37,733 nt of DNA from Sphingomonadales bacterium (GTDB lineage Bacteria > Pseudomonadota > Alphaproteobacteria > SMXS01), in contig JALHLV010000036.1 of NCBI GenBank assembly GCA_022844405.1, positions 1 to 37,733 on the forward strand, read 5' to 3'. The translations under genes and the position numbers were made by a program. The notes under the pieces are model-generated. The model worked only from the letters and a program-made list of their open reading frames with translations, was not told the origin of the DNA and did not search any database. Each line of letters begins with the position of its first letter. Position 1 is the stretch's first letter. This document shows, in pieces, positions 1,963 to 33,019 of the stretch.

Positions 1963-2979
1963 ATGAGCAATCTGGTCAATCGGCAATGGACCCTGGCGAG
2001 CCGCCCCGCGGCCATGGTCAGCACGGACAATTTCAGGCTGGCCGACGCACCGGTGCCCGATCCGGCCGATGGGCAGATCATGGTGAAGGTCACCCACGTC
2101 GCGTTCGAGCCGGCCATGCGCGGCTGGATGGCCGAGAACCCCGGCTACATGGCCGCCATCCCCATCGGCGGCGTCATGCGCGCCATGGCGGCGGGCGAAG
2201 TGGTCGTGTCCCGCCATCCCGACTTCAAGCCGGGCGACAAGGTTTCCGGCATGTTTGGCTGGCAGGAATACGCCGTGGTCGCGGCCCAGGACAGGCTGTT
2301 GCCGGTGCAGAAGCTGGCGCCGGGCGTCACCGAGGAGATGGCCTTGAGCGTGCTCGGCATCACCGGCCTCACCGCCTATTTCGGCATGCTGGACGTGGGC
2401 AGGCCGCAGGCGGGCGACACGGTCGCCGTGTCGGGCGCGGCGGGCGCGACCGGCTCCATCGCCGGCCAGATCGCGAAAATCAAGGGCTGCAGGGTGATTG
2501 GCATCGCCGGCGGCGCCGACAAGTGCAAGTGGCTGACCGACGTGGCCGGCTTCGACGCAGCCATCGACTACAAGTCCGAGAACGTTGGCAAGCGGCTGCG
2601 CGAGCTGGCGCCCGACGGCATCAACGTGTTCTACGACAATGTGGGCGGCGAGATTCTCGAGGCGGCGCTGGACAACCTGGCCATCGGCGCGCGCATCGCG
2701 CTGTGCGGCGCCATCTCGGGCTACAACACCGGCTCGTTGCCGCAGCCGCCGAAGAACTACATGGCGCTGATCCTGAAGTCCTCCAGCATGGCCGGCTTCC
2801 TGCTCGGCCAGTATGCCAAGCGGTTCGGCGAGGCCTCGGCCGATCTGGGCGCCTGGGTGCGGGACGGCAAGCTGAAGTTCGCCGTCGACGTGCAGGACGG
2901 GTTCGAGAACGTGCCGTCCACGTTCCTGCGCCTGTTCCACGGCCAGAACCTGGGCAAGCAGCTCAACCGCATCGGCTGA
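1963..2979 (+). CDS. CurA-like NADPH-dependent oxidoreductase
   Basis: A 338-residue zinc-independent medium-chain dehydrogenase/reductase of the leukotriene B4 12-hydroxydehydrogenase / curcumin reductase (COG2130) type. These enzymes reduce alpha,beta-unsaturated ketones and aldehydes with NADPH. The N-terminal GroES-like half contains HVAFEPAMRGWM. The Rossmann motif is SGAAGATGSIAGQIAK (about residues 160-175), followed by YDNVGGEILEAAL and ALCGAISGYN, both typical of the family. There are no zinc-binding cysteines. The start is set by CAGGAGG (1951-1957) before ATG 1963; longer upstream reading through the palindromic repeat is spurious. Ferrochelatase follows after 31 bases and may be co-transcribed. 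Confidence 0.9.
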   Translation: MSNLVNRQWTLASRPAAMVSTDNFRLADAPVPDPADGQIMVKVTHVAFEPAMRGWMAENPGYMAAIPIGGVMRAMAAGEVVVSRHPDFKPGDKVSGMFGWQEYAVVAAQDRLLPVQKLAPGVTEEMALSVLGITGLTAYFGMLDVGRPQAGDTVAVSGAAGATGSIAGQIAKIKGCRVIGIAGGADKCKWLTDVAGFDAAIDYKSENVGKRLRELAPDGINVFYDNVGGEILEAALDNLAIGARIALCGAISGYNTGSLPQPPKNYMALILKSSSMAGFLLGQYAKRFGEASADLGAWVRDGKLKFAVDVQDGFENVPSTFLRLFHGQNLGKQLNRIG

Positions 2980-3010
2980 ACCGGGCGGGCAAAGCGGCCG
3001 TACAGGAGAC

Positions 3011-4012
3011 ATGACCGGACCCGACACCAACACCGGGGTGCTGCTGATCAATCTCGGCACGCCCGACGCGCCGACGCCCAAGGCGGTGCGCCGCTATCTG
3101 CGCGAGTTCCTCAGCGACCGCCGGGTGATCACCACCAACCCGCTGATCTGGCAGCCGATCCTTCACCTGTTCATCCTGCCGTTCCGGCCGCGCAAGACGG
3201 CCGAAGCCTACAAGCTGGTCTGGCGCGACGACGCCGACGGTTCGCCGCTGCGCCATTTCACCCGCACCTTGACCGAGGCAACCGCCGCGCGGGTCGGCCA
3301 GTCGCGCAACGATGTCGTCGTCGACTGGGCCATGCGCTACGGCACGCCGTCGGTGAAGGAGAAGCTGGAGAGCCTGCGGGCGCGGGGCTGCGGCCGCGTC
3401 CTGGCGATCGCGCTCTATCCGCAATACAGCGGCACCACGACCGCCTCGGCCTATGACGCGGTCGCCGCCGGGCTGCGCGCCTTGGACTGGCAGCCGGACC
3501 TGCGCACCGCGCCCGCCTTCCCGGAGGACCGGACCTATATCGAAGGATTGGCCCGCTCGGTCGAGGACCATGTGGCCTCGCTCGCGTCGCCGCCGGACGT
3601 GGTGATCGCGTCCTATCACGGCCTGCCGCAGAAATATGTCGACGACGGCGACCCCTATTACGACCAGTGCCTGAAGACCACGCGGCTGCTGCGCGAGCGG
3701 CTGGGCTGGGACGAGGACCGGCTGCGCATGACTTTCCAGTCCCGCTTCGGCGCGCTGGAATGGCTGCGGCCCTATACCGACGTGGTGCTGGCCGCGCTCC
3801 CCGGCGAAGGCGTGAAGAAAATCGCGGTGATCGCCCCCGCGTTCCTCGCCGACTGCCTGGAGACGCTGGAGGAAATGGCCGAACGCGGCCGCCACACCTT
3901 CCTCGACGCCGGCGGCGAGCAGTTCAGCTACATCCCCTGCCTCAACGCCACCCCGCCCGCGGTGGCCCTGCTCGACGGGTTGATCGCACGGGAGCTGGAG
4001 GGATGGGGGTAG
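3011..4012 (+). CDS. hemH: Ferrochelatase
   Basis: A 333-residue ferrochelatase, the last enzyme of protoheme synthesis, which inserts Fe2+ into protoporphyrin IX. It opens with GVLLINLGTPDAPT, the family N-terminus. It carries ASYHGLPQKYV with the catalytic His203, the DWAMRYGTPSV segment and a late CLETLEEMAE stretch with the conserved acidic face. Length is normal for the bacterial enzyme. No iron-sulfur cysteine cluster is seen at the C-terminus. AGGAG lies just before the ATG. Heme supply suits the heme proteins in this window (P450, cytochrome b), but this is a housekeeping gene and need not be linked to them. Confidence 0.96.
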   Translation: MTGPDTNTGVLLINLGTPDAPTPKAVRRYLREFLSDRRVITTNPLIWQPILHLFILPFRPRKTAEAYKLVWRDDADGSPLRHFTRTLTEATAARVGQSRNDVVVDWAMRYGTPSVKEKLESLRARGCGRVLAIALYPQYSGTTTASAYDAVAAGLRALDWQPDLRTAPAFPEDRTYIEGLARSVEDHVASLASPPDVVIASYHGLPQKYVDDGDPYYDQCLKTTRLLRERLGWDEDRLRMTFQSRFGALEWLRPYTDVVLAALPGEGVKKIAVIAPAFLADCLETLEEMAERGRHTFLDAGGEQFSYIPCLNATPPAVALLDGLIARELEGWG

Positions 4013-4013
4013 G

Positions 4014-4145
4014 GCCGCTTCGCGGCCCTCACCCTAACCCTCTCCCTGTTGGGGCGAGGGGACGATGCTTGTGCATCGACACGGATCGACCCTTCTCCCC
4101 ACCGGGGAGAAGATGGCGCGTAGCGCCAGATGAGGGGTGAGCCGC
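4014..4145. repeat. Multi-hairpin intergenic repeat after hemH
   Basis: A run of short palindromes between two convergent genes. It includes GGGCCGC-TTC-GCGGCCC directly after the hemH stop, a GATGC/GCATC hairpin, CTTCTCCCC-ACC-GGGGAGAAG, and TGGCGC-GTA-GCGCCA. The whole is bracketed by an imperfect inverted repeat, GCGGCCCTCACCCT near 4023 and AGGGGTGAGCCGC near 4133-4145. Such CCCTCACCCTAACCC-type elements are common REP-like repeats of GC-rich proteobacteria. The hairpins could terminate transcription from both flanking genes. Confidence 0.7.
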
Positions 4146-4159
4146 GCCAGCGGCTTCTC

Positions 4160-4543
4160 TTACTTCTTCGCCGCCGGCCCGTCGAACGACTTCAGCAATT
4201 CGTACCAGCCCGACCCCTTCACCGCCAGCGGCATGGCGCCGAACTTCGCGGCCGTGTCCAGGTGCTTCTGGCGGCCCGCCCAGGCGTTGGGGTCGCGCTG
4301 CCACTCGTTCAGCACGCGCTCGGCCTCGTCATAGCTGGGCGCCTCGACCTCGTAGAGCGACAGGTAGCCCGACACGGTCTGGCTCCCCAGATGCGCCCCG
4401 GCCAGCTTGAACACGCTGCCGCGCACGAAGTTCGGGCAATGGGCCGTGTCCTCGATGTGCTGGTCGACGAACCACTCGTCGAACTGCGCCTGCTTGTCGG
4501 CGCTGGGCGGCTCGCAGAGCCCGATGAGAACGAAACGCGGCAT
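4160..4543 (-). CDS. Dimeric alpha/beta-barrel protein (EthD/DUF4286-like)
   Basis: A 127-residue soluble protein with the signature of ferredoxin-like dimeric alpha/beta barrels: MPRFVLIGLCEPP as the first strand, QFDEWFVDQHIEDTAHCPNF as the first helix with its conserved His, and SGYLSLYEVEAPSYDEAERVL as a middle strand and helix. Related EthD and DUF4286 proteins accompany degradation pathways, but most have no assigned reaction. GGGGAG precedes the ATG on the minus strand. The gene is divergent from squalene-hopene cyclase, and the region between them has been duplicated (4554-4808). No specific function is proposed. Confidence 0.75.
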   Translation of the reverse strand: MPRFVLIGLCEPPSADKQAQFDEWFVDQHIEDTAHCPNFVRGSVFKLAGAHLGSQTVSGYLSLYEVEAPSYDEAERVLNEWQRDPNAWAGRQKHLDTAAKFGAMPLAVKGSGWYELLKSFDGPAAKK

Positions 4544-4808: not shown

Positions 4809-6826
4809 AGACACCCCTGACCTTGCAGGCCATGGACGACATTTTGCGCGGCGCGATCCGCGACGGCCTCGCGTGGTCGGTGTCGACGCAGCATCCGGAC
4901 GGCTACTGGGTCGGCAGGCTGCAAACCAACGCCTGCATGGAAGCCGAGTGGATCCTGGCACTGCACTTCCTTGGCCTGCACGACCATCCGCACCGGCAAG
5001 GGCTGAAGCTGTCGATCCTGCGCGGCCAGCGCGAGGACGGGTCGTGGTGCATCTATCACGGCGCGCCGGGCGGCGACATCAACGCCACCGTCGAAAGCTA
5101 CGCGGCGCTGCGCTCCATGGGCATGGCGGCCGACGATCCGGTGCTGGCGAAGGCGCGGGCGTGGATTTTTTCAAAGGGCGGCCTGCGCAACGTGCGGGTG
5201 TTCACCCGCTACTGGCTGGCGCTGATCGGCGAGTGGCCGTGGGAGCGCACGCCCAACATCCCGCCAGAGGTGATCCGTTTCCCGCTGTGGTTCCCGTTCA
5301 GCATCTACAATTTCGCCTCCTGGGCGCGGGCGACGCTGATGCCCATCGCCGTGCTGTCGGCGCGGCGGCCGTCGCGGCCGCTGACCTCGCGGCTTGACGA
5401 GCTGTTTCCCGAAGGCCGCGACCGTTTCGACTATTCGCTGCCGAAAAAGATCAGGCCGTTCACCTGGGAACGGTTCTTCATGGGCACCGATGCGATCCTG
5501 CATGGCGCCCAAACCCGCAAGCTGATCCCCGGCCGCGAGGCGGCCATCGCTCGCGTACTGGAATGGGTCATCAAGCACCAGGATGCCGACGGCGCCTGGG
5601 GCGGCATCCAGCCGCCCTGGATCTACAGCCTGCTGGCGCTGCATATCGAGGGCTATCCCATGGGCCATCCGGTGATGGCCAAGGGGTTGGCCGCGCTGCA
5701 CGACCCGCGCTGGTGCTACGAAACGGATGGCGCCGTCAACATCCAGGCGTCGGTGTCGCCGGTGTGGGACACGGTGCTGACGCTGCTGGCCATGGAGGAT
5801 TGCGAGGCGCTGGACGAGCATGCGGAGGCGGTCGAGCGGGCCATCGGCTGGCTGCTCGACAACGAGGTGCGCCATTACGGCGACTGGTCGCAAAAGGTGA
5901 AGGGCGTCGCGCCGGGCGGCTGGGCGTTCGAATACGCCAACCAGTTCTATCCCGACGTGGACGACACCGCCGTGGCGCTGATCGTGCTGGCGAAGCATCG
6001 CCACGATCCGAAATGGCAGGCGCGCGGCATCGACGCGGTGATCGGCCGGGCGGTCAACTGGGTGCTGGCCATGCAGTGCCGGGGCGGCGGCTGGGCGGCG
6101 TTCGACCGCGACAACGACGCGGCGATCCTTACCCGCATCCCGTTCAGCGATTTCGGCGAGGCGCTCGATCCGCCCAGCGTCGACGTCACCGCCCATGTGC
6201 TCGAAGCGCTGGGCGTGCTGGGCTATGACTGGCACCATCCAGCGGTCGAGCGCGGCGTCGCGTTCCTGCGCAAGGAGCAGGAGACGGACGGTAGCTGGTG
6301 GGGCCGCTGGGGCGTCAACTATGTCTACGGCACTTCGGCCGCGCTGCCGGCGCTCAAGGCCGTGGGCGAGGACATGCGCGCCGACTACATCACCCGCGCC
6401 GCCGACTGGGTGATCGCCCACCAGAACACCGACGGCGGCTGGGGCGAGACCTGCGGCTCCTACATGGACCGGTCACTGGCGGGGAAAGGCGACAGCACCG
6501 CGTCGCAGACCGCCTGGGCGCTGATGTCGCTGCTCGCCGTCGGCCGGCCGGGTGACCGGACAGTGGTGGAGACCGGATTGCGCTACCTGTCGTCGCGCCA
6601 GAACGGCGGCACCTGGGACGAAGCCGAATACACCGGCACCGGCTTCCCCGGCTACGGCCTCGGCCGGCACATCGACCTGGGCCAGGGCGTCGAGGAGAAC
6701 CTGGGCCAGTCGATCGAACTCAGCCGCGGCTTCATGATCAACTACAATCTCTACCGCCACTACTTCCCGCTGATGGCCATGGGCCGGGCGCGCAAATACC
6801 TCGCGCGTTTGGGGAATGAAGCCTGA
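4799..6826 (+). CDS. shc: Squalene-hopene cyclase
   Basis: A 675-residue squalene-hopene cyclase, the membrane-associated enzyme that folds squalene into hopene, the parent of hopanoids. The acid motif DVDDTA is at residues 386-391, with Asp388 in the position of the protonating Asp. QW-type repeats stud the protein, for example QDADGAWGG, QETDGSWWGRW and QNTDGGWGE. GSWWGRWGVNYVYGTSAAL is the family signature near residues 498-516. Length is normal. No strong ribosome site precedes ATG 4799 (AAGGGA lies 23-28 bases away). The next ATG, at 4832, is possible but would cut the usual N-terminus. No other hopanoid gene is present here. The 5' region carries a duplication. Confidence 0.96.
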   Translation: MNVETPLTLQAMDDILRGAIRDGLAWSVSTQHPDGYWVGRLQTNACMEAEWILALHFLGLHDHPHRQGLKLSILRGQREDGSWCIYHGAPGGDINATVESYAALRSMGMAADDPVLAKARAWIFSKGGLRNVRVFTRYWLALIGEWPWERTPNIPPEVIRFPLWFPFSIYNFASWARATLMPIAVLSARRPSRPLTSRLDELFPEGRDRFDYSLPKKIRPFTWERFFMGTDAILHGAQTRKLIPGREAAIARVLEWVIKHQDADGAWGGIQPPWIYSLLALHIEGYPMGHPVMAKGLAALHDPRWCYETDGAVNIQASVSPVWDTVLTLLAMEDCEALDEHAEAVERAIGWLLDNEVRHYGDWSQKVKGVAPGGWAFEYANQFYPDVDDTAVALIVLAKHRHDPKWQARGIDAVIGRAVNWVLAMQCRGGGWAAFDRDNDAAILTRIPFSDFGEALDPPSVDVTAHVLEALGVLGYDWHHPAVERGVAFLRKEQETDGSWWGRWGVNYVYGTSAALPALKAVGEDMRADYITRAADWVIAHQNTDGGWGETCGSYMDRSLAGKGDSTASQTAWALMSLLAVGRPGDRTVVETGLRYLSSRQNGGTWDEAEYTGTGFPGYGLGRHIDLGQGVEENLGQSIELSRGFMINYNLYRHYFPLMAMGRARKYLARLGNEA

Positions 6827-25293: not shown

Positions 25294-25850
25294 CAATGCC
25301 TCCGGGCGGACGATCGCGTCCGCGGAAAACCGCTGGTCGGTGCATGGCCGCGGAGAAACGCTACGCGACGCCACTGCGGAACGGGCTCACAGATTGCCAC
25401 TGCGATCAGCACCCGACACGCGACGGGCCGGCGGGCAAAAGGGAGAATAATTGGACTCGAACTGTAACAACGAATTCGCACTTTTCACTCTATATGAGAG
25501 CGAATATGGTCGGTGACTCATTTATTTTTTATTATTGAACTGAATTTGGGAACTATTTATCGATTGCATTAATTTGCAGATTAAGGGGCAGCCCGATGCA
25601 ATTGTGGGGAAAATGGACTTCAGTATGCGCGGTGGCTTGCGATTATCTTGGATTGCGCGCCGTGTAGGGCGACCCTCCGGCACACTGCCCCATCGGTCCC
25701 TCCCCGGGTTCTGGCGTGCAAGCGGCATAGCGGGGAATGAACGCGCGCGGCACGACTTCCCGTACCGAATCGAATGGCCGCGGCGGGTGCCGCCGGCTGG
25801 CGCGGCGCGCCGGCCGTTGCTACAGTGGCGCCGGGGGCCGGAGCGGTCGA
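25294..25850. other. 557-bp intergenic region with an AT-rich core
   Basis: The stretch separates the signalling operon (leftward) from a small secreted protein gene (rightward). Bases about 25440-25640 are strikingly AT-rich for this genome, with runs such as ATTTATTTTTTATTATTG around 25521-25538, and may hold promoters or protein-binding sites for the kinase operon. No reading frame here has a ribosome site or recognisable product. I see no RNA gene or inverted repeat of note. Confidence 0.5.
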
Positions 25851-26153
25851 ATGCGCTGTTTCACCTTGATTTTCATAATTTTGGCTTCTTCCGCCGCCCA
25901 TGCCGCGCCCACGGGCGCCTGGGTTTGCCGGTACAAGGACCCCAACCAGAAGCAGACGGTGCGGCTGGACTTCGCCGCCGGCCGGTTGTCCGTCGATCGC
26001 GGAATCGGCGCCGTCCCGATGAAGAACGCCGTCATCGCCGACGACCGCGTGTCCTGGAAAGACGGCATGACGTTCGAGTTCTTTCCCAGCGAGAAGCGGA
26101 TGACGCGCACTTCCGCCACCGGCACCGACGGCCTGGTCTGCGTCAGGGAGTAG
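25851..26153 (+). CDS. Small secreted protein of unknown function
   Basis: A 100-residue protein with a signal peptide, MRCFTLIFIILASSAAHA, cleaved near residue 18. The mature part of about 82 residues is predicted beta-rich, with alternating polar and non-polar residues (QTVRLDFAAGRLSVDRG), and has two cysteines, Cys26 and Cys97, placed to close a disulfide across the whole domain. That suggests a small beta-barrel or lipocalin-like fold; I do not recognise the family. It starts at ATG 25851; readings further upstream lose the signal peptide. It ends two bases before the msrB stop (convergent). It is not methionine-rich, so it is not an MrpX-like scavenger. Confidence 0.65.
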   Translation: MRCFTLIFIILASSAAHAAPTGAWVCRYKDPNQKQTVRLDFAAGRLSVDRGIGAVPMKNAVIADDRVSWKDGMTFEFFPSEKRMTRTSATGTDGLVCVRE

Positions 26154-26155
26154 GC

Positions 26156-26656
26156 TTACGCCGTGCCGGGCCTGAACGACAGCGACAGGCCGTTCATGCA
26201 ATAGCGCAGGCCGGTCGGCCTGGGGCCGTCGTTGAATACGTGACCCAGATGCCCGCCGCACCGGCGGCAATGCACCTCGTCCCGCACCCAGCCGCCGGAA
26301 TAGTCCTTCCGGGTGCGCACCGCGTTGTCCAGGGGCTTCCAGAAGCTGGGCCAGCCGGTCCCGCTGTCGAACTTGGTCTTCGACGAGAACAGCGGCAAGT
26401 CGCAGCCGGCGCAACGGAAGGTGCCGGCGCGCTTCTCGCGGTCGAGCGGGCTGGTATGGGGCCTTTCCGTATCCTCGTGGCGCAGTACCCGCCAGGCCCG
26501 GTCGCCAAGCTGCCCCCGCCATTCCGCGTCGGTCTTGGTGATCTCGAACACCTCCGCATCGGCCTTCGCCGTGGCGCCCGAGCGGGTGGCGCCCATCACG
26601 CCCAGCAGGGCGAGCAGGCTGGCGCCGCCGAACAGCACCGATCGTCTGGTGTACAT
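26156..26656 (-). CDS. msrB: Exported peptide-methionine (R)-S-oxide reductase
   Basis: A 166-residue MsrB. It reduces the R-epimer of methionine sulfoxide in proteins. Zinc ligands are CAGC (Cys82, Cys85) and CRRC (Cys130, Cys133). FDSGTGWPSFW and HLGHVFNDGPRPTGLRYCMNGLSL carry the active site with Cys153. The N-terminus, TRRSVLFGGASLLALLGVMGATRSGATA, has a twin Arg followed by a hydrophobic stretch, so export by Tat is likely and the enzyme would act in the periplasm. The gene follows msrA after 10 bases, and both should be driven by the promoter at 27411-27440. The periplasmic electron donor is not in the window. Confidence 0.95.
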   Translation of the reverse strand: MYTRRSVLFGGASLLALLGVMGATRSGATAKADAEVFEITKTDAEWRGQLGDRAWRVLRHEDTERPHTSPLDREKRAGTFRCAGCDLPLFSSKTKFDSGTGWPSFWKPLDNAVRTRKDYSGGWVRDEVHCRRCGGHLGHVFNDGPRPTGLRYCMNGLSLSFRPGTA

Positions 26657-26666
26657 GGCCGCGCTC

Positions 26667-27365
26667 CTAACGGGCCGCGACCAGCACCGGCTGGTCGCGG
26701 TACTGGCCGGGGAACATCTTCTTCAGGTTGGCGATCTTCGGCAGGTCGTAGAAGGCGATGTAGCGGCTGTCGGGATGCCGCGTCGCATAGTCCTGGTGAT
26801 AGGCCTCGGCCGGCCAGAACTTCGCGGCGGGCTGCACCGTGGTGACGATGGGCCTGGGATAGACCTTCGCCGTGTCGAGCTGGGCGATATAGGCGGTCGC
26901 CACCTTCATCTGGCTGTCGCTGGTCGCAAAGACGGCCGAGCGGTACTGGGTGCCCCGGTCCGGTCCCTGCCGGTTGAGCTGGGTCGGATCGTGGGCGACC
27001 GAGAAGTAGATGCGCAGGAGCTGGCCGTAGGACACCTGCTTCGGATCGTAGGTCACCTTGACCGCTTCGGCGTGGCCTGTCCGCCCCGTCGTCACGTCGT
27101 CGTAGGTCGGTGATTTCGTCTTGCCCCCGGCATAGCCGGAGACGGCGCTGGTGACGCCCCTGGTGTGCTGGAACACCGCCTGGACGCCCCAGAAGCAGCC
27201 GCCGGCGAGGATGGCGGTTTCCGACGCGGCGGCGGACGGCGTGTCGAGCGCGGGCGCGGGGATGGCGACCGCCTTCTCGGCGGCTGTCGCGGGCAGCACC
27301 GAAAGCGTTGCGGCCGCCAGCGCGACGGCGAGGAAACGGGAAAGCGGGCGAATGGAACGGTTCAT
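26667..27365 (-). CDS. msrA: Exported peptide-methionine (S)-S-oxide reductase
   Basis: A 232-residue MsrA. It reduces the S-epimer of methionine sulfoxide. The catalytic motif is GGCFWG with Cys57; GYAGG, the Glu of GHAEAV and FWPAEAYHQDY are conserved family segments. The N-terminus (SIRPLSRFLAVALAAATLSVLPATA-AE, cleavage near residue 29) is a Sec signal peptide, so the enzyme is periplasmic, matching exported MsrB. AGGAG precedes the start at good spacing. It is the first gene of the leftward msrA-msrB operon, facing the cytochrome b / molybdoenzyme operon across a 183-bp region with two SigF-like promoters. No clear second recycling Cys is seen near the C-terminus. Confidence 0.96.
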   Translation of the reverse strand: MNRSIRPLSRFLAVALAAATLSVLPATAAEKAVAIPAPALDTPSAAASETAILAGGCFWGVQAVFQHTRGVTSAVSGYAGGKTKSPTYDDVTTGRTGHAEAVKVTYDPKQVSYGQLLRIYFSVAHDPTQLNRQGPDRGTQYRSAVFATSDSQMKVATAYIAQLDTAKVYPRPIVTTVQPAAKFWPAEAYHQDYATRHPDSRYIAFYDLPKIANLKKMFPGQYRDQPVLVAAR

Positions 27366-27410
27366 GTGCTCACTCCTGTGGCCGCCAGATTGGATGCGGC
27401 CTTCTCCTGT

Positions 27411-27440
27411 TCATTCGGCGGACGGCGGCGGAAAGTTACA
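27411..27440 (-). promoter_or_regulatory. SigF-type ECF promoter for msrA-msrB
   Basis: On the minus strand TGTAACT (27440-27434), exactly 16 bases, then CGAATGA (27417-27411). The recalled SigF consensus of Caulobacter is GTAACC-N16-CGAA. The start codon of msrA lies about 45 bases downstream. The architecture is the same as in the facing promoter at 27485-27514, and the sigF-nrsF genes lie nearby. Confidence 0.78.
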
Positions 27441-27484
27441 GGCCGGCGTCAAAGCGGCCCGGGGCGGAAAAATCCGTGGCATGA

Positions 27485-27514
27485 TGTAACCCGCCGACCG
27501 TTTCGGGCGAATGA
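27485..27514 (+). promoter_or_regulatory. SigF-type ECF promoter for the cytochrome b operon
   Basis: TGTAACC (27485-27491), exactly 16 bases, then CGAATGA (27508-27514). GGAGG (27536-27540) and ATG 27549 follow. This is the mirror image of the msrA promoter and should drive cytochrome b, the molybdoenzyme and, by read-through, sigF-nrsF, giving autoregulation. Confidence 0.82.
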
Positions 27515-27548
27515 GTCTTCATACGGTCCTGCACTGGAGGGAAACCGC

Positions 27549-28190
27549 ATGTCCGGCGACATCAGTCCGAAACCGCGAAAGCGCTGCGCCATCCATCCTT
27601 CTATCGTCCGGCTGACCCATTGGATCAACGCCGCGGCGATGATCGTGATGGTCATGAGCGGCTGGCAGATCTACAACGCCCATCCGATCTTCGACTTCAG
27701 GTTCCCGGCGTGGATGACCCTGGGCGGCTGGCTGGCCGGCGCCATCGCCTGGCACTTCGCCGCCATGTGGGTGCTGGCCGTCAACCTGCTGGTCTATCTG
27801 GCCTATGGCCTGTTCTCGGGCCATTTCCGCCGCGACCTGCTGCCGATCACGCCGGCCGGTGTGTGGCGCGACGTGAAGGCGGCGCTCGCCTTCCGGCTGC
27901 CGCACGCGCTGGGACATTACAACGCGGTACAGCGGCTGCTCTATGCGGGCGTCATCGCGCTCATCCTGCTGGCGGTCGCCTCCGGCCTCGCCATCTGGAA
28001 GCCGGTGCAGTTCCAGACGCTCGTCTGGCTGATGGGCGGATTCGACTTCGCCCGCGTGGTCCACTTCTTCGCCATGGCCGGCATCGTCGGCTTTTTCGTC
28101 GTCCACATCCTGCTGGTCTTGATCGTCCCGAAAACCCTGGCGCCGATGATCCTCGGCGGCACGGTCCCGGACGCGGAGGCAACACCATGA
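27549..28190 (+). CDS. Membrane cytochrome b (b561/YedZ1-like)
   Basis: A 213-residue membrane protein with about four main helices and heme-b-type histidines: His24 in RLTHWIN, His in IAWHFAAMW, His in RVVHFFAMAG and His in FFVVHILLV. This is the cytochrome b561 / hydrogenase-formate dehydrogenase gamma fold (PF01292), not the MsrQ fold that usually partners MsrP. It likely passes electrons from quinol to the molybdoenzyme that follows, whose ATG overlaps its stop by four bases (ATGA). YedZ1 of Azospira suillum, in a SigF-controlled hypochlorite operon, is the closest role analogue I know of. The start is fixed by GGAGG (27536-27540). Confidence 0.9.
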   Translation: MSGDISPKPRKRCAIHPSIVRLTHWINAAAMIVMVMSGWQIYNAHPIFDFRFPAWMTLGGWLAGAIAWHFAAMWVLAVNLLVYLAYGLFSGHFRRDLLPITPAGVWRDVKAALAFRLPHALGHYNAVQRLLYAGVIALILLAVASGLAIWKPVQFQTLVWLMGGFDFARVVHFFAMAGIVGFFVVHILLVLIVPKTLAPMILGGTVPDAEATP

Positions 28191-28945
28191 GCATCCTCAG
28201 ACCCCAACGCCCGACGCTCGACGACCTCAAGCCCGAACTGGCCGACATCGAACGCCGTCTGTTCCTGCGTGGCAGCCTTTCGCTGGGCGCGCTCACCCTG
28301 CTGACCGGCTGCAACCTGGTCGAAGGCAATTCGGTCGACAAGGCGCTGATGGCCATGTCGCACTGGAACGACAAGGTGCAGGCCTGGCTGTTCGACCCGA
28401 ACAAGCTGGCGCAGACATACAGTCGGGCCGACATCACCACGCCGTTCCCGTTCAACGCCTTCTACCCGGAATCCCGCGCGCCGGCCGTCGACGGCGGCAC
28501 CTACAGGCTGGAGGTTTCGGGCCTGGTCGCCGACAGGAAGTCGTGGACCATCGAGGAACTCCGCGCGCTGCCGCAGGAAAGCCAGATCACGCGGCACATC
28601 TGCGTCGAGGGCTGGAGCGCCGTCGGCGAGTGGTCGGGCGTGCGCTTCAGCACCTTCCTCGACCGCATCGGCGCCGACAGGCGGGCGCGCTATGTGGGCT
28701 TCAAATGCGCCGACGGCTACTACTCCAGCATCGACATGGCGACAGCGCTTCACCCGCAGACCATCCTGGCGCTGGATTTCGGCGATGATCCGTTGCCGCG
28801 CAAATACGGCTACCCGATGAAGCTGCGGGTGCCGACCAAGCTGGGCTTCAAGAATCCCAAGCATATCGGTGCCCTGTTCGTCACCAACGACAATCCGGGC
28901 GGCTATTGGGAGGACCAGGGCTACAACTGGTTCAGCGGCTCCTGA
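28187..28945 (+). CDS. MsrP/YedY-like molybdopterin oxidoreductase
   Basis: A 252-residue sulfite-oxidase-fold molybdopterin enzyme. The core begins TYRLEVSGLVADRKSWTIEEL (about residue 105). Cys139 in RHICVEGWSAVG is the expected molybdenum ligand, and KFGYP-like KYGYPMKLRVP closes the pocket. The N-terminus has twin arginines (RRLFLRG, 23-29) and a lipobox LLTGC ending at Cys42, indicating Tat export and lipid anchoring to the membrane. With the coupled cytochrome b it probably reduces periplasmic methionine sulfoxide using quinol, like MsrP; other S- or N-oxides remain possible. The placement opposite msrA-msrB and before sigF-nrsF supports oxidative repair. Confidence 0.9.
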   Translation: MSILRPQRPTLDDLKPELADIERRLFLRGSLSLGALTLLTGCNLVEGNSVDKALMAMSHWNDKVQAWLFDPNKLAQTYSRADITTPFPFNAFYPESRAPAVDGGTYRLEVSGLVADRKSWTIEELRALPQESQITRHICVEGWSAVGEWSGVRFSTFLDRIGADRRARYVGFKCADGYYSSIDMATALHPQTILALDFGDDPLPRKYGYPMKLRVPTKLGFKNPKHIGALFVTNDNPGGYWEDQGYNWFSGS

Positions 28946-29019
28946 TCGATCGGGTTTGCCAAATGCAGCCTGCTGTCCTTAGCCTGTCGCCGGGCGCCTT
29001 TCGCGCCTTCGGACGCAGG

Positions 29020-29577
29020 ATGGACCACAGCGACCAGGCCAACCGCCGTCTCGGCGGATTGATGGTGTCGGCGCAGGCCGGCGACCGCGCCGCCTATGAC
29101 GCGCTGCTGCGCGACTGCGTGCCGGTCATTCGCGCCGTGGCGCGCGGGCGCGGTGTGCCACCGGACGCCGTCGACGACGTGGTCCAGGAAACCCTGCTGA
29201 CGATCCACCGGGCGCGGCACACCTACGATCCGGCCCGCTCGTTTCGGACTTGGCTGCGCACCATCGCCGAACGCCGGGCCATCGACCTGCTGCGCCGCCA
29301 AGGCCGCCAGCGGTCGCGCGAAGTTCACGATGAGGCCGCCTACGAAACCCATCCGGCCGCAGCCCAGACGCCCGTCGCCGAAGTGGATGCCGGGCTGCGG
29401 CAGGCGATCGACGGTCTGCCCGAGGGCCAGCGCCAGGCAATCGAGGAACTGACGCTGAAGGACCGGTCGCTGGCCGAGGCCGCCCAGGCCACGGGCCGCT
29501 CGCCCGGCGCGCTCAAGGTCAACCTGCACCGGGCGCTGAAAACGCTGCGCGCCCGACTGTCGCGAGAGGAGGGATGA
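29020..29577 (+). CDS. sigF: ECF RNA polymerase sigma factor, SigF type
   Basis: A 185-residue extracytoplasmic-function sigma factor. Region 2 is DDVVQETLLTIHRARHTYDP (DNA melting and -10 contact) with SFRTWLRTIAERRAIDLLRR; region 4 is LPEGQRQAIEEL with the helix-turn-helix LAEAAQATGRSPGALKVNLHRAL, which reads the -35. There is no sigma-1.1 domain. The start is uncertain: ATG 29020 and ATG 28963 are both possible and neither has a strong ribosome site. The gene follows the molybdoenzyme within 74 bases, probably in the same transcript, and overlaps nrsF by four bases. By analogy with Caulobacter SigF it would recognise the two TGTAAC-N16-CGAA promoters nearby. Confidence 0.9.
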   Translation: MDHSDQANRRLGGLMVSAQAGDRAAYDALLRDCVPVIRAVARGRGVPPDAVDDVVQETLLTIHRARHTYDPARSFRTWLRTIAERRAIDLLRRQGRQRSREVHDEAAYETHPAAAQTPVAEVDAGLRQAIDGLPEGQRQAIEELTLKDRSLAEAAQATGRSPGALKVNLHRALKTLRARLSREEG

Positions 29578-30212
29578 TGGCGCATTCGACCGAGAACCTG
29601 ATCCGCGAGCTGGGCGAGGGTCTGGCGCCGGTGCGCCGCGCCGCTGCGCCCAACCGTCTCGCGCTGCTGTGGCTGGGCTTGGCCGCGCTGATCACCGCCG
29701 GCATCGCCGTCTTCTTCGACATGCACGCCGCCCTGGCGAGGCTGGACTCGGCGGCCGACACGCGGCTTGCCGCGCTGGGCTCCCTGCTCACCGCGGTCCT
29801 CGCCGCCAAGGCCGCGTTCGAGCTGGCGATGCCCGGGCGGTCACGGTTGTGGGCGCTGTTGCCGCTGCCTGCAGCCCTGCTGTGGATCGGCGCGAGCGGC
29901 ATGGGCTGCCTGCGTCAATGGACGACGGACGGCTGGGACGGCAGCGTTCATTCGGAATGCCTGATGTCCATCATTGGCATCTCGGCGCCGCTCGCCGTGG
30001 CCATGATCGTCATGCTACGCCGGGCGTTCCCGCTCCATCCGGTATTGACGGCCTCGCTCGCGGGCCTTGCTTGCGCCGCCGCGTCGGCCAGCATGCTCGG
30101 CATGTTCCATCCCGCGGACCCCGTTGTCGCCGATCTCGCCTTCCATGCCCTGGCCGTCGCGGTCGTCACCGCCGCGATGACCGCATCCGGCGGACGGCTG
30201 CTGCAGCGCTAG
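29574..30212 (+). CDS. nrsF: NrsF-type membrane anti-sigma factor (DUF1109)
   Basis: A 212-residue inner-membrane protein with six predicted helices and an N-terminal cytoplasmic segment, ENLIRELGEGLAPVRRAAAP, typical of DUF1109/NrsF proteins that hold SigF at the membrane. Cysteines are Cys112, Cys129 and Cys167. Cys129 in SECLMS fits the first redox/metal-sensing Cys known in Caulobacter NrsF. The second site, usually a HCP-like motif, reads MFHPAD here, with His179 where I would expect Cys. The start overlaps the sigF stop. Its loss of grip on SigF would trigger the Msr and molybdoenzyme promoters. Confidence 0.87.
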   Translation: MMAHSTENLIRELGEGLAPVRRAAAPNRLALLWLGLAALITAGIAVFFDMHAALARLDSAADTRLAALGSLLTAVLAAKAAFELAMPGRSRLWALLPLPAALLWIGASGMGCLRQWTTDGWDGSVHSECLMSIIGISAPLAVAMIVMLRRAFPLHPVLTASLAGLACAAASASMLGMFHPADPVVADLAFHALAVAVVTAAMTASGGRLLQR

Positions 30213-30307
30213 GACAGCCCTGCATGTCCTGACGGGTTTCTGCCCGGCAAGGCGGCGTGGTAGAACCGTGCCGCCCGCCGCGTCGGGACTGACCAGGGGA
30301 GAACGCC

Positions 30308-30841
30308 ATGCCCGGTATCGAAGACAAGCTGGAAATCCACGAGACGCTATACCGCTATTGCCGGTCCATGGACCGCATGGACGCGCCGCTGGCGCTGGAC
30401 TGCTTCTGGCCCGACGCCACGCTGGAATACAGCGGCCTCTACAGCGGCGCGCCCGCCGGATTCGTCGAATGGCTGTGGCCGGTGCACGCGTCGATGGTCT
30501 GCCACACCCACCGGGTCTGCAACATGCTGGTCGACTTCACCGGCGACGCGGCGGCGGTCAGCGAGAGCATGGTGCAGGTGACCTTGCGCATGCAGCCGGC
30601 CGACGAGCTGATCGACCTGATCGGTCATGGCCGTTACCTGGACACCTGGCGCAAGGCCGAAGGCCGCTGGCGCATCGCCGGCCGGGTCTTCGTGTCGGAC
30701 ATGAGCACCATGGTGCCGGTGCGCGCACGCGACGTCGGTGCTATCCTCTATCCGGGCACGCCCGGACAAAAGCCGCTTCCCGGCACGCGCGACACCTCGG
30801 ACCTGTCCTACAAGTTGCTGCCTGATCTCGGGAGAGCGTGA
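30308..30841 (+). CDS. SnoaL/NTF2-like protein
   Basis: A 177-residue protein of the nuclear-transport-factor-2-like SnoaL_4 group. ETLYRYCRSMDRMDAPLALDCFWPDATLEY (about residues 12-41) is the family N-terminal helix and cone. HASMVCHTHRVCNMLVDF and DTWRKAEGRWRIAGRVF form the sheet. Relatives include ring-hydroxylating dioxygenase small subunits, scytalone dehydratase and limonene-epoxide hydrolase. Many act on steroids or aromatics, but the reaction is not assignable here. GGGGAGAACGCC precedes ATG 30308. It overlaps the start of the LLM gene by one base (TGATG), so the pair is translationally coupled and probably works on the same compound. Confidence 0.85.
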   Translation: MPGIEDKLEIHETLYRYCRSMDRMDAPLALDCFWPDATLEYSGLYSGAPAGFVEWLWPVHASMVCHTHRVCNMLVDFTGDAAAVSESMVQVTLRMQPADELIDLIGHGRYLDTWRKAEGRWRIAGRVFVSDMSTMVPVRARDVGAILYPGTPGQKPLPGTRDTSDLSYKLLPDLGRA

Positions 30842-31722
30842 TGAAGCTGGGCGTCGTCTATCCGCAAACCGAACTGAAGGGCGACCCGCAGGCCGTCCAC
30901 GACATCGGCCTTGCCGTCGAGAAGCTGGGCTACGATCACATCCTGGTGTTCGATCACGTGGTCGGCGCGTCACACGACCGCGAGCCCAAGCTGTGGGGTC
31001 CCTATACCGAGAACCATCCGTTCCACGACCCGTTCGTGATGTTCGGCTATTGGGCGGGCATCACCCACCGGATCGAGCTGGTCACCGGCGTGCTGATCCT
31101 GCCGCAGCGCCAGACCGTGCTGGTCGCCCAGCAGGCCGCCGACGTGGACCTGCTCTCGCACCAGCGGCTGCGTCTCGGCATCGGCACCGGCTGGAACTAC
31201 GTGGAGTACGACGCGCTGGGCCAGGACTTCGAGACCCGCGGCGCCCGTGCCGACGAGCAGATCCCGTTCCTGCGCCGGCTGTGGTCGGAGCATGTGATGA
31301 GCTTCGAGGGTCGCTTCGACCGCATCGACAAGGGCAACATCCTGCCCCGGCCCAGGCGGCAGATCCCGATCTGGGTCGGCGGCTTCACCGAACCGGCGTT
31401 CCGCCGCGGCGGCAGGCTGGGCGACGGCTACATTTTCGCCGGCGACGTCGACCACGCGACCCAGGGATGGGAGCGGGTCCGCCACCATTTGAAGGAATCG
31501 GGACGTCCGGAAGCCGGCTTCGGCCGCGAACTGATCACCATCCGCGCCACCGACCTGCAGCAGACCGTCGATACGGTGAAGCGCTGGCGCGACCTGGGCG
31601 GCACCCACGCCTCGATCAATTCCATGGGCAAGGGCTTCACCACCATCACGGCGCATATCGACTTCATGTCCGAGGTGCGCCACCGCATCGAGGCGGGACA
31701 GACCGCTCCTATGGTCGTGTGA
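30841..31722 (+). CDS. LLM-class flavin/F420-dependent oxidoreductase
   Basis: A 293-residue luciferase-like TIM-barrel enzyme: MKLGVVYPQTELKGDP, LGYDHILVFDHVVGAS, HRIELVTGVLILPQRQTVLVAQ, LRLGIGTGWNYVEYDALG and PIWVGGFTEPAFRRGGRLGDG match the F420-associated TIGR03619-like branch. It is coupled to the NTF2-like gene before it. GTG 30838 is an alternative start; ATG 30841 is chosen because TGATG coupling is common. Its last 14 bases overlap the end of the convergent arylsulfotransferase-like gene. It is a distinct paralogue of the LLM protein at 15056. Cofactor and substrate are undetermined. Confidence 0.9.
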   Translation: MKLGVVYPQTELKGDPQAVHDIGLAVEKLGYDHILVFDHVVGASHDREPKLWGPYTENHPFHDPFVMFGYWAGITHRIELVTGVLILPQRQTVLVAQQAADVDLLSHQRLRLGIGTGWNYVEYDALGQDFETRGARADEQIPFLRRLWSEHVMSFEGRFDRIDKGNILPRPRRQIPIWVGGFTEPAFRRGGRLGDGYIFAGDVDHATQGWERVRHHLKESGRPEAGFGRELITIRATDLQQTVDTVKRWRDLGGTHASINSMGKGFTTITAHIDFMSEVRHRIEAGQTAPMVV

Positions 31723-33019
31723 AGCCGCGGAAGCTGGTGTCGAGCGCCCGCGCCTCGATCCGCTGGCCGGACGCGATCACCGGGATGTAGGCGCCGCCCG
31801 GACCGGCGCGCGTCGGGTTGGTGTATTCCCACACCACGGTGCCGCTGTTGTCGACCTCGATCAGCCGCCCGCCGTCCGACTCGGTCAGCAGCGTGTTGCC
31901 GTTGCCGAGCCGCTGCGCCGACAGCCGCGCCGTACTGGCGAAAGGCTGATCGGTTCCGCCGCCGAAGGACCAGACCACCGTGCTGGTCGACATGTCGATC
32001 TGCTGCGCCCGGCTGTCCTTGTCGTCGGGCGCGTCGACCACCATCAGGTCGCCGTCGGGCAGGGCGCGGGCCTCGTGCTGACCCCGCCATTCGCCGCGCC
32101 CGGCCCAGATGACCTGCTTGCCGGAGACGTCCAGTACCGCGACCGCGTCGAGAGCGCCGAACGACAGCAGCACCCGTTCGCCCGCGCTGTCGGGAACACC
32201 TTTCGCCCCGTTGCTGCCCAGATACTGGACGCTGGTCGCGCCCAGCGGGTCATGGTGTCCGGGTGGCACCTTGCGGAGCAGCGAGGCGAAACGCGAGCGT
32301 TCCAGCGCATCGACCAGCGAAATCTTCGCCGTCTCCTTGCCGTCGGGCGACAGCACGGCGAGGAAGTCCTCGAGGAACGGCGTCTCGAGAACGGTCGCCG
32401 GCTCGTCATCCTCGCGGATCGCCTGGACCAGCGCGAAGATGCGGCCATCGGGCGCCACGTCGAAGGCGCCGTGGGCGCGTTGCAGATAGCGCCACAGCGG
32501 CTTCGAGTCCTTGTCCACCTTCACCATGCCGTAGCCGGCCGGCATATGGCCGGCGGCCTCGAACACGGCGATCAGGTCGCCGTTGGGCATCACCCGGGCG
32601 TGGCGCAGGAACACCAGATTGTCCGGCTGGGGCTCCTGCACGGCGGCACCGTCCTGCTTCCAGACCGTGCTGTAGGGAATGGTCCACTCATGGACCGGCG
32701 CGCCGGTCATGGTGACCAGCCGCGCCACGGGACCTTCGCCCGAGGTGTAGAGCGTGAAGCCGCGCTGGGCGCCGATCGGGTCCCAGACGGTCACGCCCTT
32801 GTCGGCCGCGCGGGCTTTGCCCCAGTGGTCGGTCGTCAGCGGATCGCCGATCGCCTGCCGCTGCTCGCGCAGCGTGTCCCCCTGCCAGGCATCCGCCAGG
32901 ATCTTCGCCGCAGGCGGCCAGACGGCAACGGTCACGCCCGTACCGGCGACCGCGGTTGCCGCCGCCAGGGCGATCCAGATTTTCTTGCGCAATGCCGGTA
33001 CCTTCCCGCGCGGTCCCAA
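31709..33019 (-). CDS. Arylsulfotransferase (ASST)-like exported protein
   Basis: A 436-residue protein with an N-terminal membrane segment, KKIWIALAAATAVAGTGVTVAVW, acting as signal anchor or signal peptide. The rest repeats beta-propeller blades, such as RHARVMPNGDLIAVFEA, RGQHEARALPDGDLMVVDAP and RLGNGNTLLTESDGGRLIEV, as in arylsulfotransferase ASST family proteins, which move sulfate between aryl esters in the periplasm. A catalytic His could be in GHHDPLG or GQHEARA, but I cannot fix it. Blades of this kind also occur in other propellers, so the enzyme activity is not certain. The gene lies just downstream of the large hybrid kinase in the same direction (72-bp gap). Confidence 0.78.
   Translation of the reverse strand: MGPRGKVPALRKKIWIALAAATAVAGTGVTVAVWPPAAKILADAWQGDTLREQRQAIGDPLTTDHWGKARAADKGVTVWDPIGAQRGFTLYTSGEGPVARLVTMTGAPVHEWTIPYSTVWKQDGAAVQEPQPDNLVFLRHARVMPNGDLIAVFEAAGHMPAGYGMVKVDKDSKPLWRYLQRAHGAFDVAPDGRIFALVQAIREDDEPATVLETPFLEDFLAVLSPDGKETAKISLVDALERSRFASLLRKVPPGHHDPLGATSVQYLGSNGAKGVPDSAGERVLLSFGALDAVAVLDVSGKQVIWAGRGEWRGQHEARALPDGDLMVVDAPDDKDSRAQQIDMSTSTVVWSFGGGTDQPFASTARLSAQRLGNGNTLLTESDGGRLIEVDNSGTVVWEYTNPTRAGPGGAYIPVIASGQRIEARALDTSFRGFTRP

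Follow-up and report, generated by a model that had tools for sequence, protein, structure and literature searches.

Across 183 bp of a 37,733-nt stretch of DNA from a Sphingomonadales bacterium (GCA_022844405.1, contig JALHLV010000036.1, positions 1-37,733, forward strand; hereafter the window), two sets of genes face away from each other. On one side is msrA, which starts at 27365 and reads leftward; on the other is a gene for a cytochrome b561-type protein, which starts at 27549 and reads rightward. What controls this region, and what would the two sets of products do together? We conclude, with a probability of roughly 0.85, that it would be a bidirectional control point of a SigF/ECF16-type sigma factor held by its anti-sigma factor, NrsF, with autoregulation. 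This conclusion rests on sequence, conservation, the pattern of the regulon and co-location, and from these we infer transcription, sigma dependence, export, the signal, the enzyme substrate and the cysteine chemistry.

A predicted pair of divergent SigF-type promoters

The motif GTAAC-N17-CGAATGA has exactly two matches in the whole window, at 27411-27439 (-) and 27486-27514 (+), and none in 100 dinucleotide shuffles of it. This confirms the sequence-only reading, which had described two divergent, equally spaced sites here. Each arm reads TGTAAC(T/C)-N16-CGAATGA. The predicted leftward promoter spans 27411..27440 (-), with TGTAAC at 27435-27440 and CGAATGA at 27411-27417; its predicted rightward counterpart spans 27485..27514 (+), with TGTAAC at 27485-27490 and CGAATGA at 27508-27514. 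The GTAAC boxes are separated by 46 bp. Because the spacers are identical at only 7 of 16 positions, a recent inverted duplication seems an unlikely origin for the pair, and we rejected it.

The proposed match to SigF promoters also holds against published consensus sequences, which, like the other literature cited here, are taken from excerpts of the papers. Both sites fit the ECF16 consensus, (T/C)GTAAC-N17-CGAA (PMC8315932), and the Caulobacter SigF promoter, GTAACC-N16-CGAA (PMC3511200). No sigma-70 consensus promoter turned up when 25400-31900 was scanned, and sigma-70 promoters were therefore set aside as drivers of the region. Terminator-like sites number seven in the same interval, compared with 3.7 +/- 2.0 in shuffles. 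One of the seven is a hairpin (+) within the b561 gene; such hairpins occur at about the frequency expected by chance, and we counted this one against control by SigF.

Methionine sulfoxide reductases on one side, a probable SigF-NrsF operon on the other

The genes on either side are those that had been proposed, as judged by protein family matches. Leftward, msrA (26667..27365 (-), 232 aa) matches PF01625 with 209.9 bits and exceeds the curated cut-off of TIGR00401 (184.7 vs 108.1 bits), and msrB (26156..26656 (-), 166 aa) matches PF01641 with 155.8 bits and exceeds that of TIGR00357 (161 vs 113.05 bits). By inspection, MsrA begins with an apparent Sec-type signal peptide and MsrB with a Tat-like N-terminus, TRRSVLFGG; the resemblance to Sec and Tat signals extends to the congeners. 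The window msrA is the only one of four MsrA-family genes found in the genome to have both a Sec-type N-terminus, again by inspection, and the upstream motif.

Rightward lie the b561-type membrane protein (27549..28190 (+), 213 aa; PF01292, 80 bits), an MsrP/YedY-like molybdopterin oxidoreductase (28187..28945 (+), 252 aa; PF00174, 107.2 bits), an NrsF-linked ECF sigma factor, SigF/ECF16 in type (28963..29577 (+), 204 aa), and an NrsF-type anti-sigma factor (29574..30212 (+), 212 aa; PF06532, 68.4 bits, above the cut-off). The b561 and molybdoenzyme genes overlap by 4 nt, 17 nt precede sigF, and sigF and nrsF overlap. As the genes overlap or nearly so, the four likely form a single operon.

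The sigma factor contains only sigma regions 2 and 4 (PF04542 and PF08281), an ECF architecture. A tree of 109 sigma rows places it among 97 that are split from 12 other ECF rows by a 100/100 branch. Nearly all of these 97 are NrsF-linked, seven of them lie beside other NrsF genes, and beside two (L149 and G044c67) NrsF was not found. The branching of canonical and window-type sigma factors has weak support, and some branches are long. Architecture, adjacent NrsF, promoter and tree grouping place the window sigma with the NrsF-linked SigF/ECF16 sigmas, and the earlier assignment of a SigF-type sigma and its anti-sigma to the rightward operon stands.

Downstream of nrsF, at 30308-31722, are genes for a SnoaL-like protein and an LLM-class oxidoreductase. 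They are linked to nrsF in the five congeners that have sigF (G001, G002, G003, G005 and G006), and we saw no sign of a role for them in the response.

A small predicted regulon in the window genome

A scan of the genome for further targets, which the sequence-only reading had suggested, found six matches to TGTAAC-N17-CGAA, against two for a reversed-pattern control. The longer form, GTAAC-N16 to 18-CGAATG, has four matches, every one with N17, against one for its control. Five of the six sites precede a coherent set of mostly exported-looking redox and metal genes, with GTAAC 56-118 nt ahead of the start codon: msrA, the b561-molybdoenzyme-sigF-nrsF operon, a DUF1223 gene, an AhpC/TSA gene and a DUF2282 gene. 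Several of the proteins start, by inspection, with an apparent export signal. The DUF2282 gene is followed by a PF05114 gene, a family formerly called DUF692. The sixth site (C9, L072) lies within a coding region and was counted against control by SigF, and no gene for a methionine-rich scavenger peptide was seen at any of the six. This pattern suggests that the same sigma should drive the DUF1223 gene, the AhpC/TSA gene and the DUF2282-PF05114 operon; DUF2282-type operons are SigF targets in Caulobacter (PMC3511200). Some congeners have orthologues of these targets, and there the motif precedes all that were found: three of three DUF1223 genes, one of one AhpC/TSA and two of two DUF2282.

Conservation within the genus

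We searched six congeners (G001-G006). Four of them (G001, G003, G005 and G006) share the gene arrangement of the window genome, and both sites are kept in all five genomes that have it; only one of these ten sites, the rightward one of G001, has a spacer longer by one base. In an alignment of the five divergent regions, invariant columns make up 23 of 26 within the motifs and 42 of 157 elsewhere (one-sided Fisher p 2.5e-9). In a 7-kb stretch of G002, sigF-nrsF occurs without the msr and b561 genes, which was counted against the proposed control point, and a site precedes sigF. In G006, a methionine-rich peptide gene with its own site adjoins nrsF. NrsF was not detected in G004, a genome that is 78% complete.

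G003 and G004 also share an identical copy of the motif ahead of a gene that, by inspection, is dapF-like (L195 and L200, at about position 1500 (-)). We took this site, one copy of which is in the genome that yielded no NrsF, to be unrelated.

SigF loci beyond the genus

To look further afield, we scanned contigs with the sigma alignment; the counts that follow are for the best 80 loci by that scan, in which L095, L096 and L157 coincide with G001, G006 and G023. NrsF was detected at 79 of the 80, MsrB at 40, MsrA at 4 and a b561-molybdoenzyme pair at 7. A GTAAC-N16 to 18-CGA(A/T) site lies ahead of the sigF operon at 51, and a divergent pair of sites at 34; reversed and two permuted motifs are found at none. 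Two features were counted against control by SigF. At 29 of the 80, sigF has no such site before it; and of the 34 divergent pairs, 31 belong to one sigma clade, of Rhodanobacteraceae and allied MAGs, so that the lineages are few: this Rhodanobacteraceae-type clade, the window genus (L095 and L096) and a MAG labeled Acidobacteria (L113), whose leftward genes are MsrB and MsrA.

Individual loci have related gene content. Opposite sigF in a Dyella sp. (L098), the leftward genes start with one for a DsbD_TM-thioredoxin fusion (2550-4271 (-)), behind which lies MsrB with a Tat-like N-terminus. The fusion possibly supplies electrons to an exported MsrB, an arrangement reminiscent of the electron route that has been proposed for the EcfF targets of Bradyrhizobium (PMC3420878). 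A Rhodopila locus (L106) has an MsrB-MsrA pair with its own site, its spacer one base longer. Two further loci, L097 and L159, share the order sigF-nrsF, site, methionine-rich exported-looking peptide, b561, molybdoenzyme; the peptide genes, MXKDX-like, lie at about 5941-6180 and 5800-6067 (+), respectively, each with its own SigF-type site.

At L043 (3554 (-)) and L048 (3525 (-)), sites opposite sigF precede genes for small DUF2282-like proteins, so labeled for their likeness to the DUF2282 protein of the window genome.

An alternative cysteine layout in NrsF

How might such an anti-sigma factor sense its signal? Bradyrhizobium OsrA depends on C129 for holding EcfF and on C179 for its response to H2O2 (PMC3420878); the corresponding Caulobacter NrsF cysteines are C131 and C181 (PMC3511200). 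The window NrsF instead has C112 and C129, with H179 where the canonical second cysteine would be. The first canonical cysteine (C129 of OsrA) is present in 95 of 95 aligned NrsF rows. The second (C179 of OsrA) is present in five, all of which were added as canonical-type NrsF. C112 occurs in 86 rows, the window included, and never together with the second canonical cysteine; four rows (L163, L173, G041 and L081c) have neither. Dropping rows more than 80% alike leaves 68, of which 59 have C112, five the second canonical cysteine and four neither. The 95 rows include a broken gene (L103), a split gene (L109) and three places represented twice; moreover, sampling followed resemblance to the window sigma, and these shares are therefore no measure of how common each layout is in nature. 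The separation of C112 and C129 is 20 residues in 70 of the 86 rows and 17 in the window.

A structural model of the window NrsF (mean pLDDT 89.7) has six long helices besides short ones. In it, C112 falls within the final third of long helix 3, and C129 is where long helix 4 begins. Both should therefore face one and the same periplasmic loop, provided that the N-terminus is cytoplasmic. A search of the PDB by sequence found no relative of NrsF up to E 0.1.

Two of the NrsF genes are interrupted, one by an inner stop (L103, 5098-5718) and one by a split in two (L109, 2979-3537). Each break may be an assembly error or a real loss.

The molybdoenzyme: methionine sulfoxide or sulfite?

The sequence-only reading had one sigma inducing both arms of periplasmic methionine sulfoxide repair along with itself. 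Motif, conservation and regulon make a shared sigma with autoregulation the best reading, but "both arms" was an overstatement. The molybdoenzyme reaches 81.9 bits with the curated MsrP model, below the NCBIfam cut-off of 207, and its partner is a PF01292 b561 protein, not MsrQ. We therefore did not file it as MsrP, and its substrate is deduced indirectly; a search of the genome found no match above the MsrP cut-off. By inspection, the protein has a Tat-like motif, RRLFLRG, and an LTGC lipobox. Its best solved relative is 1xdq, a bacterial enzyme of the sulfite oxidase family, with which its CVE(A/G)WS cysteine, presumably the Mo ligand, aligns; as CVEGWS, this cysteine is invariant in eight of eight aligned rows. 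Its neighbors suggest that the enzyme would work like MsrP, and a second methionine sulfoxide arm is plausible.

A more specific proposal, which we make tentatively and would put at somewhat under even odds, combines the enzyme with the NrsF cysteines. The system would be a distinct redox switch in which the one-loop pair C112/C129, rather than the canonical two-loop pair, senses oxidants; the b561-linked MsrP-like molybdoenzyme would be an unrecognized alternative to MsrPQ for periplasmic methionine sulfoxide repair; and one bidirectional region would bring on thiol-driven and quinol-driven repair together.

The molybdoenzyme and b561 might instead resemble a sulfite dehydrogenase, with SigF answering sulfite, sulfur or metal stress and msrAB a side member of the regulon. 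PF00174 includes sulfite oxidases, the enzyme gives weak matches to the SorA and SoxC models, and the relatives of solved structure that were found for it bear the name sulfite oxidase. Caulobacter SigF, moreover, answers chromate and cadmium and not, in the excerpted results, generators of reactive oxygen species, and the DUF2282-PF05114 operon resembles its metal-induced targets (PMC3511200). We nevertheless consider this explanation unlikely, because the best curated match is to MsrP and not SorA (81.9 vs 46.2 bits), because an MsrB gene is present at half of the best 80 SigF loci, and because the b561-molybdoenzyme pair of L097 and L159, coming after sigF-nrsF and a methionine-rich peptide, recalls the MsrPQ neighborhood of Brucella (PMC8315932).

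A second sulfite-oxidase-family protein is encoded elsewhere in the window genome (C15:47518-47949 (-), locus L189), where we saw no convincing SigF site.

The linked sigma as the probable reader of the sites

Could another sigma factor or regulator of the genome, rather than the linked SigF, recognize the pair of motifs? The genome has five further matches to the window sigma protein, and cross-talk between ECF sigma factors has been discussed for rhizobia (PMC6180224). NrsF, in contrast, has a single match in the window genome, adjoining the window sigma, and TGTAAC-N17-CGAA sites outnumber their control only in relatives with NrsF. In six genus genomes with NrsF, there are 22 such sites against 8 for reversed controls, whereas four relatives without NrsF have 3 against 14. 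The corresponding counts for GTAAC-N16 to 18-CGAATG are 19 against 3 and 7 against 6. One of the relatives without NrsF, G007, has five matches to this last form against one for its reversed control; control by SigF does not explain them, they were counted in favor of a different regulator, and no link to an Msr or NrsF gene was seen at the five loci. Taken with the sites that precede NrsF-linked sigma operons at 51 of the best 80 loci, the distribution makes recognition by a different regulator very improbable. Chance or base composition, which would make the two sites accidents and the coherence of the regulon a coincidence, we regard as close to negligible: a few chance matches per genome do occur (0-8 for each reversed control), but no shuffle of the window contained a match, the sites are kept in five of five genomes despite diverged spacers, and the motif is kept before six of six orthologous targets found in congeners.

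A model for the control region

With the linked SigF as the regulator, the following sequence of events can be proposed. At rest, a six-helix NrsF in the membrane would hold SigF. Oxidation of periplasmic NrsF thiols, probably C112 and C129, would release it, and free SigF would direct RNA polymerase to two independent promoters. The leftward one would yield exported MsrA and MsrB; the rightward one would yield the b561/MsrP-like molybdoenzyme pair and then, at the end of the operon, SigF and NrsF. The presence of both sigF and nrsF in a SigF-driven operon would give positive autoregulation with a built-in shut-off. MsrA and MsrB would repair exported proteins by thiol chemistry, and the molybdoenzyme would draw electrons through b561.

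Relation to known systems

Several known systems resemble this one in part. In Azospira suillum, SigF-NrsF reportedly controls an MsrP-type system, YedYZ-MrpX, against hypochlorite; it is said to differ from the window in having an MsrQ-type partner and a methionine-rich peptide in the operon.

In Bradyrhizobium japonicum, EcfF-OsrA likewise pairs an ECF16 sigma with an NrsF-type anti-sigma, is autoregulated from a GTAAC...CG promoter and has among its targets genes for peptide methionine sulfoxide reductases, one of them predicted to be periplasmic (PMC3420878). Transcription of ecfF begins 6 bp downstream of the second promoter box (PMC3420878). The control of these reductases counts in favor of SigF relatives controlling MsrA/MsrB-type genes. 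Unlike in the window, the Msr genes do not, by locus number, lie beside the sigma gene, the motif is GTAAC(g,a)-N14-15-(c,t)CG(t,a), and OsrA relies for its H2O2 response on C179, a position at which the window NrsF has no cysteine (PMC3420878). Brucella BcrS-AbcS/bcrXQP also combines an ECF16 sigma and an NrsF-type anti-sigma, beside a methionine sulfoxide reductase operon, with the promoter (T/C)GTAAC-N17-CGAA and induction by HOCl (PMC8315932), and it counts in favor of control of MsrP/MsrQ by SigF relatives. It differs in its MsrP/MsrQ-type enzymes, in place of a b561 pair, and in its canonical C129 and C179, and the excerpted account mentions no MsrA/MsrB arm (PMC8315932).

Two other systems count partly against the proposed control point. 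Caulobacter crescentus SigF-NrsF shares the GTAACC-N16-CGAA promoter, NrsF, a YedY-family target (CC2748) and DUF2282-type operons, but in the excerpted results its two msrA homologues are unaffected and autoregulation is not strong under metal stress, and its NrsF has the canonical cysteine layout (PMC3511200). In Sinorhizobium meliloti, predicted ECF16 motifs precede both the RpoE7-EcfR7 operon and a divergent target operon, and RpoE7 raises both. The targets, however, are not Msr proteins but conserved hypothetical ones that resemble CC3254-CC3257 of Caulobacter, and the excerpted account reports no inducer, with no response of the promoters to H2O2, cadmium or chromate (PMC6180224).

A divergent arrangement of SigF-type promoters is thus already on record, from S. 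meliloti RpoE7 (PMC6180224), and so is control of Msr genes by SigF (PMC3420878, PMC8315932). What is apparently new is, first, a branch of NrsF that has C112 in place of the H2O2-response cysteine of canonical OsrA and, second, a b561-linked MsrP-like pair that recurs beside SigF, twice behind methionine-rich peptides. Among the matches listed in open-license literature, we found no report of the C112/C129 layout or of such a pair under SigF. SigF-NrsF control of methionine repair would be extended to a case in which MsrA, MsrB, an MsrP-like pair, the sigma and the anti-sigma share one 183-bp control region, providing a compact, testable regulon. As the whole NrsF branch lacks the OsrA cysteine for the H2O2 response, sensing could be tested by comparing two natural cysteine layouts.

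A canonical-type SigF locus of another alphaproteobacterium (L046) also has a divergent pair of sites, at 3443-3530. There, the leftward site faces a gene for a methionine-rich exported-looking protein, and sigF-nrsF is followed by an MsrA gene that has a site of its own.
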